From: Metallosphaera hakonensis JCM 8857 = DSM 7519
GTDB taxonomy: Archaea > Thermoproteota > Thermoprotei_A > Sulfolobales > Sulfolobaceae
Reading direction: 5' to 3'
Assembly (NCBI RefSeq): GCF_003201675.2
Contig: NZ_CP029287.2
Span: 1,488,001-1,552,000 of the forward strand
DNA length: 64,000 bases
In this document: one piece after another, positions 9,364 to 13,167 of the stretch
How positions within the stretch are numbered: position 1 is the stretch's first letter
Layout: every line of letters starts with the position of its first letter
Position numbers and translations under genes: made by a program
Notes under the pieces: model-generated
The model's database searches: none
What the model was told of the DNA's origin: nothing
What the model saw: only the letters and a program-made list of their open reading frames with translations

Positions 9364-9594
9364 ATGTCTAATCTGGAGGAAGAAATAAGGAGTCTACTCA
9401 CGGAAAGACCAATGTTATCCGAGGAGATAAGAGAGAAACTCATGGAGAAAGGTGTTTCCTTCACCCCGATTCAGATCAGGGAGACACTGGCAAGCATGGT
9501 AAGAAAAGGTGAAGTGGAGAAGATCCCTGACTACAACAAAAGGAAGTTTTATTTCAAGCTAAAGATGATTTCTGGTTCTCAACAATCTCAATGA
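9364..9594 (+). CDS. Small winged-helix protein
   Basis: The 76-residue product starts at ATG 9364 (a TTG directly upstream is also in frame). It contains one winged-helix domain: EIRSLLTERPMLSEEIREKL, FTPIQIRETLASMVRKGEV, then a wing (KIPDYNKRKFYF). It may be a DNA- or RNA-binding regulator. Its last 41 bases overlap the 3' end of the convergent Mrp gene, an unusually long tail-to-tail overlap. Function unknown. Confidence 0.65.
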   Translation: MSNLEEEIRSLLTERPMLSEEIREKLMEKGVSFTPIQIRETLASMVRKGEVEKIPDYNKRKFYFKLKMISGSQQSQ

Positions 9595-10453
9595 CCTTGT
9601 CCGCAATCTTCAGGAACTCCTTTGAAGCTGGGGAATCCAAGTATTTCAGGAAGAACGGTTCTCCTTGATCATTGGATTCGGCTATTCTCGGGTCAAGTGG
9701 GACTTGTCCCAGAAGCGGTACTCCGAGCTCTTCAGCCATCTTCTTTCCTTTATCTTGGCCGAAAATGTAGTAGTTCTTGGATTCAGATGGACATACGAAG
9801 TAACTCATGTTTTCCACTACGCCCAGTATCCTTGTGTTAACGGTTTTGGTGAAGTTTATAGATCTCCTAACAGCAAGGGTTGATACTTCAGAGGGAATAG
9901 TGACAATGACGAACCCAGTTATATTGGGTACCAACTGCGCCACGGAAAGGGCCTCATCCCCTGTCCCAGGTGGCATATCTATTATTAGGTAGTCGAGTTG
10001 TCCCCAGTTTACATCCCCTAGAAATTGCCTTATGGCTGAGTGTTTTATGGACCCCCTCCATATCACTGGTGTGTCGTCTCTAGGCAGAAGGAAATCTATT
10101 GACACTACCTTGATTCCGAAGGGACCGTTTACGGGATTTATTCCGTTATCGTCTGCAGTGAGCATTTGTCCTCTAACTCCAAGCATTTTGGGTACGGATG
10201 GCCCATGGAAATCTACATCTATTATCCCCACGCTCTTTCCAGCCGCAGCCAAGGCCATGGCTAGGTTCGAAGAAACAAAAGATTTCCCTACTCCACCTTT
10301 TCCGCTTAATATTGCAACTTTATATTTCACATTTTTCATTCTTGACTGAATCTTCAGGTCAGCGCCTTGAACCTGAGGAACTGGGGCTTTCCTCAAATCC
10401 CTGGGCTGTTTAGCTGGTTGTGGTGACTGTAGTCTAAATGGATTTGAACTCAT
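9554..10453 (-). CDS. Mrp/NBP35 family Fe-S carrier ATPase
   Basis: A 299-residue P-loop protein with the deviant Walker A GKGGVGKS at residues 51-58, then DVDFHGPSVPKMLGV and DMPPGTGDEAL, all typical of Mrp/ApbC/Nbp35 proteins that bind and hand over iron-sulfur clusters in the cytoplasm. The usual C-terminal CPxC pair is incomplete: SYFVCPSESKNYYIF shows one cysteine only, so cluster binding, if it occurs, must use other ligands. A proline-rich N-terminal tail of ~35 residues precedes the domain. It follows the AK6-type gene by 27 bases on the same strand. Confidence 0.92.
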   Translation of the reverse strand: MSSNPFRLQSPQPAKQPRDLRKAPVPQVQGADLKIQSRMKNVKYKVAILSGKGGVGKSFVSSNLAMALAAAGKSVGIIDVDFHGPSVPKMLGVRGQMLTADDNGINPVNGPFGIKVVSIDFLLPRDDTPVIWRGSIKHSAIRQFLGDVNWGQLDYLIIDMPPGTGDEALSVAQLVPNITGFVIVTIPSEVSTLAVRRSINFTKTVNTRILGVVENMSYFVCPSESKNYYIFGQDKGKKMAEELGVPLLGQVPLDPRIAESNDQGEPFFLKYLDSPASKEFLKIADKVIEIVENQKSSLA

Positions 10454-10480: not shown

Positions 10481-11026
10481 TCAACTAATAACCTTATCTA
10501 AAGTAAGAAGTAAATCCTGGATCTCCGAATAGCTCAGCCAGTCTATTGTGCTATCACACGAGTTATTCAAGATCTTATTTACAACTTGTTCAGGAGTTAA
10601 GTTGGTCGTATCTATTTCACAAACATCCTTAAACCAGTCGTGAGCTTCTTGTGCAACATATCCTAAGATCTCAGCTTCCACGTTCTCTATTACCTTTAGA
10701 TCTGTCCAACCCCTCCTTGATAACTCTTCGTAAAGGACCTTTGGATTCTTCCTTAGTACTACTACCTTATCGGCTTGGTCAATAAGCGACGGATATACGG
10801 TTTCAATGACCACGTTGGACTTTTCTCTAAGGTAATCGTTTAGTTCCTTGGCTACAATCTGGTCATCTATTTCAAATGAGGATCTGGTCTGATCGTAACC
10901 TTTGTATAATTTTCTTTCTATCACAAATTTCGAGACATGAACGTACTCCATTTTAAGCATGTTGGATAGAATGGAGCAAACGCTGGTCTTTCCCACACCT
11001 GGTGTACCGCTTACTACAATTATCAT
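10481..11026 (-). CDS. Adenylate kinase-like NTPase (AK6/Fap7 family)
   Basis: The 181-residue protein starts with the P-loop [15 protein letters not shown] and has the short-LID layout of AK6/Fap7, an adenylate kinase/ATPase that in eukaryotes and archaea helps mature the small ribosomal subunit by interaction with S11 (uS11). The phrases [20 protein letters not shown] and ELSRRGW are consistent with that family. Its ATG overlaps the stop of the 53-residue membrane protein gene (ATGA), placing it in the protease-containing operon. Exact substrate preference is not readable. Confidence 0.8.
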
Positions 11027-11184
11027 CTAAATGCAAGAACGCTTTCAAGGATAAATAATGTTAATGATGCTGAGACGAGAACAAGCTTCATTTTCAGGTT
11101 TCCTTGTCCCTTTAATATTTCAAGGATACCATAAGGAAACATTACTGCACCCGTTATAAACAAAATCAACTCTATTAGACTCAT
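11023..11184 (-). CDS. 53-residue membrane microprotein
   Basis: This short frame begins [20 protein letters not shown], has a basic linker (KGQGNLKMK) and a second hydrophobic stretch ([19 protein letters not shown]), so it likely forms a two-helix membrane hairpin. Its ATG overlaps the rhomboid stop codon by four bases (ATGA) and its own stop overlaps the AK6 start in the same way, so translational coupling on both sides argues that it is a real gene despite its size. Function unknown; an accessory subunit of the adjoining membrane protease is one possibility. Confidence 0.75.
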
Positions 11185-11720
11185 GGATAAGGTCTTGGCT
11201 TGGTTTGTGTTAAAAGTCTCTTCCTACCTAAAGCAAGGATTATTCCGCCAAGTATTCCCCCTATATGGGCCAGATAATTAACGCCGGGTATTATATCGCT
11301 CAGGACAAAAACAATTAAAAGTAACCCTATTCCATTCCAATCGATTCTGCTGAACTCTAGCATATCATCTACAATATAAAATGCTAGTATACCAAAAATT
11401 CCACCTGAGGCACCAGCCGATGCTACGTCTGGGGGGAAAAGTAAAAGCGTTAAAACGTTCCCCACTATACCAGAAGTGAAGAACACTAAGTACTCGAACT
11501 TTCCGGCTTTTGATCCAAAAAGGTAGTATATTACTCCCATAGAGAAGAAGTTAAAGAGGAAATCAGTAAAGCTGTTCGTAACAAGTATTGAAGTAACTAT
11601 GGATATGTAGTCTCCTCTCAATACAAGATAGTTGACCTGTATCAAGAGGGCAAAGATAAAGGGATTAATTGTGTAGGTAATTTCTCCAACTATGAAACCG
11701 CTCAATATGAATATCATCAA
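11181..11720 (-). CDS. Rhomboid family intramembrane serine protease
   Basis: The 179-residue polytopic protein has the catalytic motif GASGGIFG (Ser about residue 105) and the partner histidine in NYLAHIGGILGG (His about 152), plus an Asn in the FLFNFF helix (about 57) that forms the oxyanion hole in this family. It should cleave transmembrane substrates within the bilayer. It is a minimal six-helix form without extra domains. It sits between the M50-type protease gene (35-base gap) and the 53-residue membrane microprotein (four-base overlap) on the same strand. Confidence 0.9.
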   Translation of the reverse strand: MMIFILSGFIVGEITYTINPFIFALLIQVNYLVLRGDYISIVTSILVTNSFTDFLFNFFSMGVIYYLFGSKAGKFEYLVFFTSGIVGNVLTLLLFPPDVASAGASGGIFGILAFYIVDDMLEFSRIDWNGIGLLLIVFVLSDIIPGVNYLAHIGGILGGIILALGRKRLLTQTKPRPYP

Positions 11721-11754
11721 AATTATTGTTGGTTTCGTTATCCATGATTTTATT

Positions 11755-12366
11755 TTAGATCTCCCCTGTTACGTACATTAGTATAAGAGATATTGCAATC
11801 ATTACTATCCAAATGCCTATGTTCCACTTGAACACCTTGAGTCCATCGAGTATCCAGAAGGGCAAGAGATTAAAGAAGGCAACTACGGCGTTAAATCCTG
11901 AGATGACCTGAAAGAAAAATGCTAACAACGGATTGCCTGTGAATATGGTCAACAGAAGAAATAGAACTGAGATGGCAATATTTGTAGACGGTCCAGCAGC
12001 AGCCGTTATTCCCTCAATTCTTTTATCTGCAGAGAAGAACCTACAGGAAATCGATGTGTATCCTGAAAAGAAAACGAGCCCAAAGAAGGGCAGAAGGTTA
12101 ATAATTGTTGTAAAAAGAAACCCTGTGAAATTTAGTGTGAACCTGGAATAGCAACCGTACCTTCTTGCAGACTGCCTGTGAGCTAATTCGTGAGGTACTA
12201 CCGCTATGGTAGCTGCAACTACTGCGGCAAGTATTCCAATTCCGAAGAATCTCGAAAATATATATAGAGAAACTCCCTTAATAGCAATAGATAGTATAGC
12301 TAACAGAAAGGATTCAACTTCATTAAGTCTACTAAATCTCCATTCCCATTCCCTAAGCCATGACAA
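11755..12366 (-). CDS. Site-2-type (M50) membrane metalloprotease
   Basis: A 203-residue membrane protein with the zinc motif HELAH at residues 59-63 and a downstream NLLPFWILDGLKV, which matches the N-x-x-P-x-x-x-x-DG third-ligand motif of site-2 proteases. It has several hydrophobic helices and no PDZ domain, unlike the second M50 protein of this window at 23268-24332. Intramembrane cleavage of regulatory or signal proteins is the family role. It is the first of a five-gene minus-strand series with rhomboid, microprotein, AK6-type kinase and Mrp. Confidence 0.85.
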   Translation of the reverse strand: MSWLREWEWRFSRLNEVESFLLAILSIAIKGVSLYIFSRFFGIGILAAVVAATIAVVPHELAHRQSARRYGCYSRFTLNFTGFLFTTIINLLPFFGLVFFSGYTSISCRFFSADKRIEGITAAAGPSTNIAISVLFLLLTIFTGNPLLAFFFQVISGFNAVVAFFNLLPFWILDGLKVFKWNIGIWIVMIAISLILMYVTGEI

Positions 12367-12388: not shown

Positions 12389-12988
12389 CTAGTGGTTTAA
12401 ATTCGTGAGCCTAACATTCTCTTTGTTCACTAAATCCACTCTAGGCGTCTCTATTTTCCAGAGAAGTGCTTTCTCGTTTCCCATTGCTACCATATATTTT
12501 TCTGTATCCTTAGAGATAATACCCTGAAACTCTACACGGGAAAGTTTCTTAAATGCGTCGAACGTTTCAAACACAACGAACTTATAGAGGAACGGCATAC
12601 TGACTTCGTACTTCTCCAGGTTTTTCCCGTACGATATTAACTTCTCCATAGAGTTACCGAAATTGAAAGGTTCCAATAAGGTAATCTCGTATATTCCATC
12701 AAAGTTAGATACCATCAAAAATACCCTCTTACTCTTGTTTGGAGTTGTTATAAGTAAGTTCAATACTCTTGTGTTTCCCCTCTCCTGACTGGACCCCCAA
12801 TATACCGAGTAACTGGCCGTCCCTTCCCGTAGGAAATCATTAACAGCCTCAGCCAGTATCATTGGAGGTATACCGAGCGTATTTAGTTCATCGTATAAAA
12901 AATTAGAAATACAGAAATAGTTCCCGTCTCTAGTTAGGCCTTTTTTCCCACGACATTCCATTACATTCATTTGTATCTCAAATACCAC
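12389..12988 (-). CDS. Conserved hypothetical protein
   Basis: The 199-residue soluble protein (MVFEIQMNVMECRGKKGLTR; later VFETFDAFKKLSRVEFQGII) has no motif I recognise. The alternating strand/helix pattern and lack of signal peptide or membrane helices suggest a cytoplasmic globular protein. It lies 22 bases upstream of the M50-type protease gene on the same strand and may share its transcript, and it follows a 53-residue gene at 13006-13167. Confidence 0.6.
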   Translation of the reverse strand: MVFEIQMNVMECRGKKGLTRDGNYFCISNFLYDELNTLGIPPMILAEAVNDFLREGTASYSVYWGSSQERGNTRVLNLLITTPNKSKRVFLMVSNFDGIYEITLLEPFNFGNSMEKLISYGKNLEKYEVSMPFLYKFVVFETFDAFKKLSRVEFQGIISKDTEKYMVAMGNEKALLWKIETPRVDLVNKENVRLTNLNH

Positions 12989-13005: not shown

Positions 13006-13167
13006 TTAACTCCTTAAATACTTTGCATATGCCTCTGCTTCAATCTTCATGTTCTTAGATATCAGGAGGTTGAGGAGATTTCTATCCTCATCCCCCTTTG
13101 GGTTATAATTGGTTAGAATTTTTTCGACCTGTTCCAATAGAGCCAATGCGTCTTTAAGGGACTGCAT
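13006..13167 (-). CDS. Possible 53-residue helical protein
   Basis: A short frame starting at ATG 13167 (MQSLKDALALLEQVEKILTN, then GDEDRNLLNLLISKN and a basic end). The amphipathic, coiled-coil-like pattern and placement just upstream of the 12389-12988 gene on the same strand support a real small gene; no family recognised. Confidence 0.5.
   Translation of the reverse strand: MQSLKDALALLEQVEKILTNYNPKGDEDRNLLNLLISKNMKIEAEAYAKYLRS

Follow-up and report, generated by a model that had tools for sequence, protein, structure and literature searches.

A conserved, Sulfolobaceae-specific membrane microprotein encoded between a rhomboid protease and an AK6/Fap7-type kinase, and its possible association with the kinase

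In Bacillus subtilis, BofA, an inhibitor of the site-2 protease SpoIVFB, occupies the active-site cleft of this enzyme, as described in PMC9042235. Frey (C11orf94) occupies the catalytic centre of SPPL2c (PMC9374335), and small membrane proteins are cleaved by RseP of Escherichia coli (PMC10470546). Archaeal Fap7 forms complexes with Rps14, and in yeast the ATPase activity of Fap7 regulates the association with Rps14, as stated in PMC4019466. The open-licence PMC literature yielded no description of the microprotein considered here or of its gene run, and the main text of PMC6249222 does not mention rhomboid, protease, peptidase, Fap7, adenylate kinase, or small proteins.

The window, a stretch of 64,000 nucleotides of Metallosphaera hakonensis, sits in a one-contig genome of 2.54 Mb and contains a run of seven genes, all on the minus strand, in the order U53-U199-S2P-rhomboid-microprotein-AK6-Mrp. 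The head of the run is a small ORF of 53 amino acids (U53; 13006..13167), present in 23 of 27 loci, which is not hydrophobic and matches DUF2150 only below threshold. The second gene codes for a conserved protein (U199; 12389..12988; present in 26 of 27 loci) without a Pfam match; its AlphaFold2 model has a pLDDT of 88.9, and no clear PDB match emerged, with none from Foldseek at E ≤ 0.001 and a best VIA Z of 4.2 over 79 residues. It is followed by genes coding for a site-2-type M50 intramembrane metalloprotease (S2P; 203 amino acids; 11755..12366), a rhomboid intramembrane serine protease (about 179 amino acids; 11181..11720), the microprotein (53 amino acids; 11023..11184), an AK6/Fap7-type adenylate kinase/ATPase (AK6; 181 amino acids; 10481..11026), and, lastly, an Mrp/ApbC-type iron-sulfur carrier ATPase (9554..10453; Pfam ParA (NUBPL), E = 1.8e-99). 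The order and strand of the last five genes were constant in 27 wide-flank loci, the window included; BLAST overlooked the microprotein in four of these loci during the synteny survey, the frame being present there according to other searches. The preliminary description of this DNA had placed S2P, rhomboid, a 53-residue ORF, and AK6 at 10481-12366, where they were indeed located. Its spacing of 35 bases between S2P and rhomboid holds as to close neighbourhood but not as to the exact gap, which measures 34 bases when counted to the TTG start of the rhomboid gene (ATG being the next codon). The two ATGA overlaps that it reported, between the rhomboid stop and the microprotein start (11181..11184) and between the microprotein stop and the AK6 start (11023..11026), were both present in the window, on the minus strand.

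The identities proposed for the two proteases and the kinase agree with Pfam, motif, and PDB matches. S2P matches Peptidase_M50 (PF02163; E = 3.9e-11) and carries HELAH and NLLPFWILDG; the corresponding HExxH and NxxPxxxxDG motifs occurred in 31 of 31 sequences, S2P being present in all 31 Sulfolobaceae genomes. The rhomboid, with its query extended back to 11744, matches PF01694 at E = 2.2e-15 (57.5 bits; cut-off 22.6) and carries GASGG and AHxGG. Among the intact Sulfolobaceae rhomboids, GASGG was found in 28 of 28 and AHxGG in 27 of 28, with AHVFGG in the remaining one (G015); hydropathy gave three to six segments, depending on the sequence, in 11 rhomboids, the core typical of the rhomboid family having six helices. 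These intact rhomboids are short (175-185 amino acids), with weaker Pfam scores (best E-values of 1e-12 to 7e-21) than the top rhomboid hits listed elsewhere in the order, which have E-values of 4e-24 or lower and lie in open frames of about 200-500 amino acids. Across the order (211 genomes, Sulfolobaceae included), a rhomboid was present in 181 genomes and S2P in 168; outside Sulfolobaceae, no adjacent S2P-rhomboid pair was seen by eye among the matches listed. On sequence grounds, the rhomboid and S2P of the run are catalytically plausible intramembrane proteases. AK6 (Pfam AAA_18) carries the P-loop GTPGVGKT, and its best PDB matches are 4cvn and 4cw7 (E = 1e-25), labelled 'putative adenylate kinase' and taken by us to be the archaeal Fap7 entry. 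It further matches 3iij (2.8e-17), a coilin-interacting nuclear ATPase protein, and 5jzv (8.4e-17), an adenylate kinase isoenzyme 6; its score against NCBIfam PRK03839, 120.9 bits, lies below the curated cut-off of 152. Two AK6 residues are special to the family, namely D86 (31 of 31 sequences) and E101 (94%, with R in 25 of 28 outgroup sequences), and may offer a lead toward a docking site.

The microprotein gene (gene finders usually take ORFs from about 90 bases upward) was retrieved by a single-sequence search in 30 of 31 Sulfolobaceae genomes at E ≤ 9e-5; in the remaining one, G011, the E-value was 0.002. A profile built from 26 sequences, the remainder being identical or near-copies, found it in all 31 genomes at E ≤ 4.6e-17. 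With this profile, the best hit among 183 other genomes of the order was a partial match (0.0026), and none of 198 non-Sulfolobaceae genomes of the class reached 0.001. The dN/dS ratio was 0.02-0.23 in 13 close pairs of rhomboid-bearing genomes and 0.40 in the genome pair without rhomboid, so that each of the 14 pairs stays under 1; synonymous change was free (pS up to 0.69), and residues E5, G12, P17, G19, S40, L43, and E47 were invariant across the family. Family-wide conservation and dN/dS together rule out a chance ORF. The microprotein of the window had no match in Pfam or NCBIfam, and the profile none in PDB; a search for a plasmid copy likewise gave no match. As to a known family, scattered weak Pfam matches appeared among the 26 members, the best being CdaA_N (1.6e-4 in 2 of 26), and were judged to be driven by composition because other members lack them. 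The sequence comparisons thus indicate that the microprotein gene is a real, Sulfolobaceae-specific gene for a membrane protein. The condition that would have refuted the preliminary description, absence of the frame from close relatives that keep the rhomboid-AK6 junction, did not arise: the frame is present in 31 of 31 genomes, including the 27 in which rhomboid, microprotein, and AK6 follow one another.

The two-helix character claimed for the microprotein is likewise supported. Two hydrophobic segments were found in all 13 sequences checked (of 31), and AlphaFold2, with a four-sequence alignment as input, predicted a hairpin (pLDDT 88.5, pTM 0.62) whose helices span 2-24 and 29-51 in a numbering that starts at residue 2. 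The turn region contains at least three K/R in 31 of 31 sequences, and the N-terminus is mostly acidic. According to the positive-inside rule, basic loops face the cytosol; the turn would therefore be cytosolic, with the invariant E5 and E47 predicted at the outer, open end.

The preferred reading, with a probability of roughly 0.4, is that the microprotein belongs with AK6, perhaps as a membrane tether or regulator, and that S2P and the rhomboid are separable neighbours. Evidence in this direction comes from genus g9, represented by G013 (99% complete) and G021 (a draft, 87% complete), in which no rhomboid match was found at E ≤ 1. Loss of the rhomboid is the simplest reading here, because G011, the sister of this genus in the tree (support 0.996), bears one. 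A stretch of 19 residues behind S2P in G021 (L091, 5095-5151) resembles the C-terminus of the rhomboid (a match obtained with 3 of 28 rhomboids, E = 5e-4) and is possibly a remnant, yet 2 of 100 shuffles scored better. In both genomes the microprotein is present and ATGA-coupled to AK6 (-4), although the run is scattered, with U199-S2P beside an MMPL gene and Mrp elsewhere. In the same two genomes (loci L039 and L040), microprotein and AK6 directly precede a gene that matches Snf7 below threshold, presumably CdvB-type, and a further ORF there in G013 is, we assume, an AAA-type ATPase. In G019, the rhomboid gene is split by an insertion that bears a transposase ORF (DDE_Tnp_1 match; L042, 4601-5566) and that may be recent, while microprotein and AK6 are whole.

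That microprotein and AK6 stay together, with their overlap, in the scattered run of genus g9 argues against the possibility that the microprotein, though a small membrane protein in its own right, is independent of its neighbours, for example as part of a complex encoded elsewhere, merely shares their transcript, and has a position and coupling that say nothing of a partner. In favour of this possibility, archaeal gene clusters of conserved order often bring together genes without related roles, and the present run is itself a mixture, with an Fe-S carrier ATPase among its members, so that this explanation is a genuine possibility, if a doubtful one. Several arrangements also speak against an association with AK6. 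In G011, AK6 is inverted and convergent to the microprotein, which keeps the strand of S2P and the rhomboid; a gene for a 7-kDa DNA-binding protein lies there between rhomboid and microprotein (L041, 6362-7576). Moreover, AK6 outside Sulfolobaceae stands without the microprotein beside it: 28 AK6 loci of other families, with flanks of about 1.5 kb (shorter at contig ends), contained no match at E ≤ 1e-3 to the window's microprotein, rhomboid, S2P, or Mrp. Two of these loci have a short ORF (37 amino acids in L083 and 41 in L086) with a single hydrophobic stretch within 50 bases of AK6.

A second line of evidence is covariation of evolutionary rates, measured as the residual rho after regression on the remaining genes. 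In the wide panel, for which branch lengths of nine genes, from the run and from its flank, were fitted to a single tree (26 genomes, 49 branches), the microprotein-AK6 pair ranked first among 36 gene pairs (rho 0.52; nominal p 0.0001). All p values are nominal, the test was post hoc, and branches are partly dependent. The microprotein gave 0.39 with U199, 0.08 with the rhomboid, and -0.12 with S2P; it covaried with AK6 and U199 and not with the other six genes tested, which again counts against an independent protein. As a control, 18 windows of 53 columns from other genes reached at most 0.44 with a foreign gene. In a five-gene panel run on four topologies, the microprotein gave 0.49-0.63 with AK6 and 0.07-0.27 with the rhomboid; the upper value, 0.27, obtained with p 0.05 on a single topology, speaks against the reading in favour of AK6. 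Omission of any one of eight genera left the microprotein-AK6 value at 0.41-0.61. In column bootstraps (93 of 100 used), this value exceeded that with the rhomboid in 91 of 93 and that with U199 in 68 of 93, its range being wide (0.17-0.60) and U199 surpassing AK6 in the other 25. Genomes G011, G013, G019, and G021 were left out of the five-gene panel, and G015 also from the wide panel and the bootstraps, because a gene was missing from their set; the rhomboid sets exclude G019 (broken) and genus g9 (none). Adjacency alone is insufficient to explain the covariation with AK6, because the rhomboid adjoins the microprotein equally. The covariation of S2P with the rhomboid, 0.40-0.59 in the five-gene panel, weakens to 0.19 in the wide panel, so that the claim of a separable S2P-rhomboid pair, which rests on the former, is the weaker for it.

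The same results bear on the main rival explanation, namely that the microprotein serves one of the two intramembrane proteases as a regulatory subunit, as an inhibitor, or as a substrate. S2P would be the likelier partner, because it is present in every genome that has the microprotein (31 of 31 Sulfolobaceae). A rhomboid adjoins the microprotein in 27 genomes, those whose run has this protease intact; precedents exist in BofA/SpoIVFB, Frey/SPPL2c, and RseP. Against this, the microprotein is kept in genus g9, with no rhomboid match and with S2P distant (at about 35 kb in G013, on a separate contig in G021), and its occurrence without a rhomboid is not that of a rhomboid-dependent cofactor. 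Furthermore, its rate covaries with neither protease, and S2P and rhomboids are common in the order without it. A protease partner is therefore rather unlikely, and the regulatory or substrate-presenting subunit of the rhomboid envisaged in the preliminary description is not supported, as the microprotein persists without rhomboid match, is coupled there to AK6, and tracks AK6 rather than the rhomboid or S2P in rate; elsewhere in the family, a protease-linked role may still hold. What stands of the small proteolysis module proposed there is that two plausible proteases and a conserved two-helix microprotein lie in one run; the rhomboid-subunit role is unsupported. Adjacency alone can thus mislead as to a partner, rhomboid loss and rate covariation favouring the kinase.

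Gene spacing varies across the family. An overlap of -4 was found between rhomboid and microprotein in 11 of the 27 genomes having both genes in the run, and between microprotein and AK6 in 16 of 30 genomes, among them both that lack the rhomboid (counts include the window; G011, where AK6 is turned round, is omitted from the latter). Both overlaps occur together in two genomes only, that of the window being one. Genus g3 speaks against AK6, as the microprotein lies there 3-10 bases from the rhomboid and 52-116 bases from AK6. Shine-Dalgarno-like matches of at least five bases, scored with what we take to be the 16S tail, preceded 0 of 17 AK6 and 0 of 11 microprotein overlapping starts, and 1 of 13 AK6 and 1 of 19 microprotein non-overlapping starts (background 5.6%). 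Overlapping and non-overlapping starts being almost equally poor in such matches, reinitiation is neither proven nor excluded; the promoter scan used a bacterial model, which says nothing for an archaeon. It is very improbable that the frame is a coupling leader or RNA-level element for AK6 expression that yields no protein, as, despite its shortness and its position directly 5' of AK6, often overlapping the AK6 start, its amino acids are conserved while synonymous sites are free, its invariant residues are family-wide, and it has no Rfam match.

If the microprotein belongs with AK6, it would enter the membrane as a helical hairpin; translation would pass from microprotein to AK6, both being made together at the membrane; and the microprotein might bind AK6, anchoring or regulating this adenylate kinase and ribosomal-protein chaperone there. 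To our knowledge, no membrane role of AK6 has been described. A stronger form, in which the microprotein is a dedicated AK6/Fap7 membrane anchor and regulator in Sulfolobaceae that couples the membrane to ribosome assembly or to adenylate balance, the proteases possibly tuning its level, seems improbable. AK6/Fap7 is common to archaea and eukaryotes, and a membrane-embedded partner, if true, would be unexpected; a dedicated anchor of this kind would bring an adenylate kinase that is also a conserved assembly factor of the small subunit under the control of the membrane in a thermoacidophile. In any case, every sampled Sulfolobaceae genome keeps a small membrane protein family that has no Pfam entry.

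Among the known systems, BofA/SpoIVFB resembles the present case in that a small membrane protein and an M50 intramembrane protease are present together in one cell. It differs in that the microprotein has no Pfam match and its rate does not follow that of S2P; no BofA family is among the ten Pfam families that the 26 members hit at E-values up to 1, although a distant relation is still conceivable for sequences so short and divergent. Frey is a membrane protein lodged in an intramembrane protease at its catalytic centre, but SPPL2c belongs to another protease class and is mammalian. The substrates of RseP are likewise membrane-embedded and of roughly 50-100 residues; they are defined as single-spanning, whereas the microprotein is predicted to be two-spanning and is kept family-wide. 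Finally, the known partner of Fap7 is a ribosomal protein, and no membrane partner appears in the Fap7 papers found, but the AK6 of the run is related by sequence to solved proteins of the Fap7/hCINAP type.
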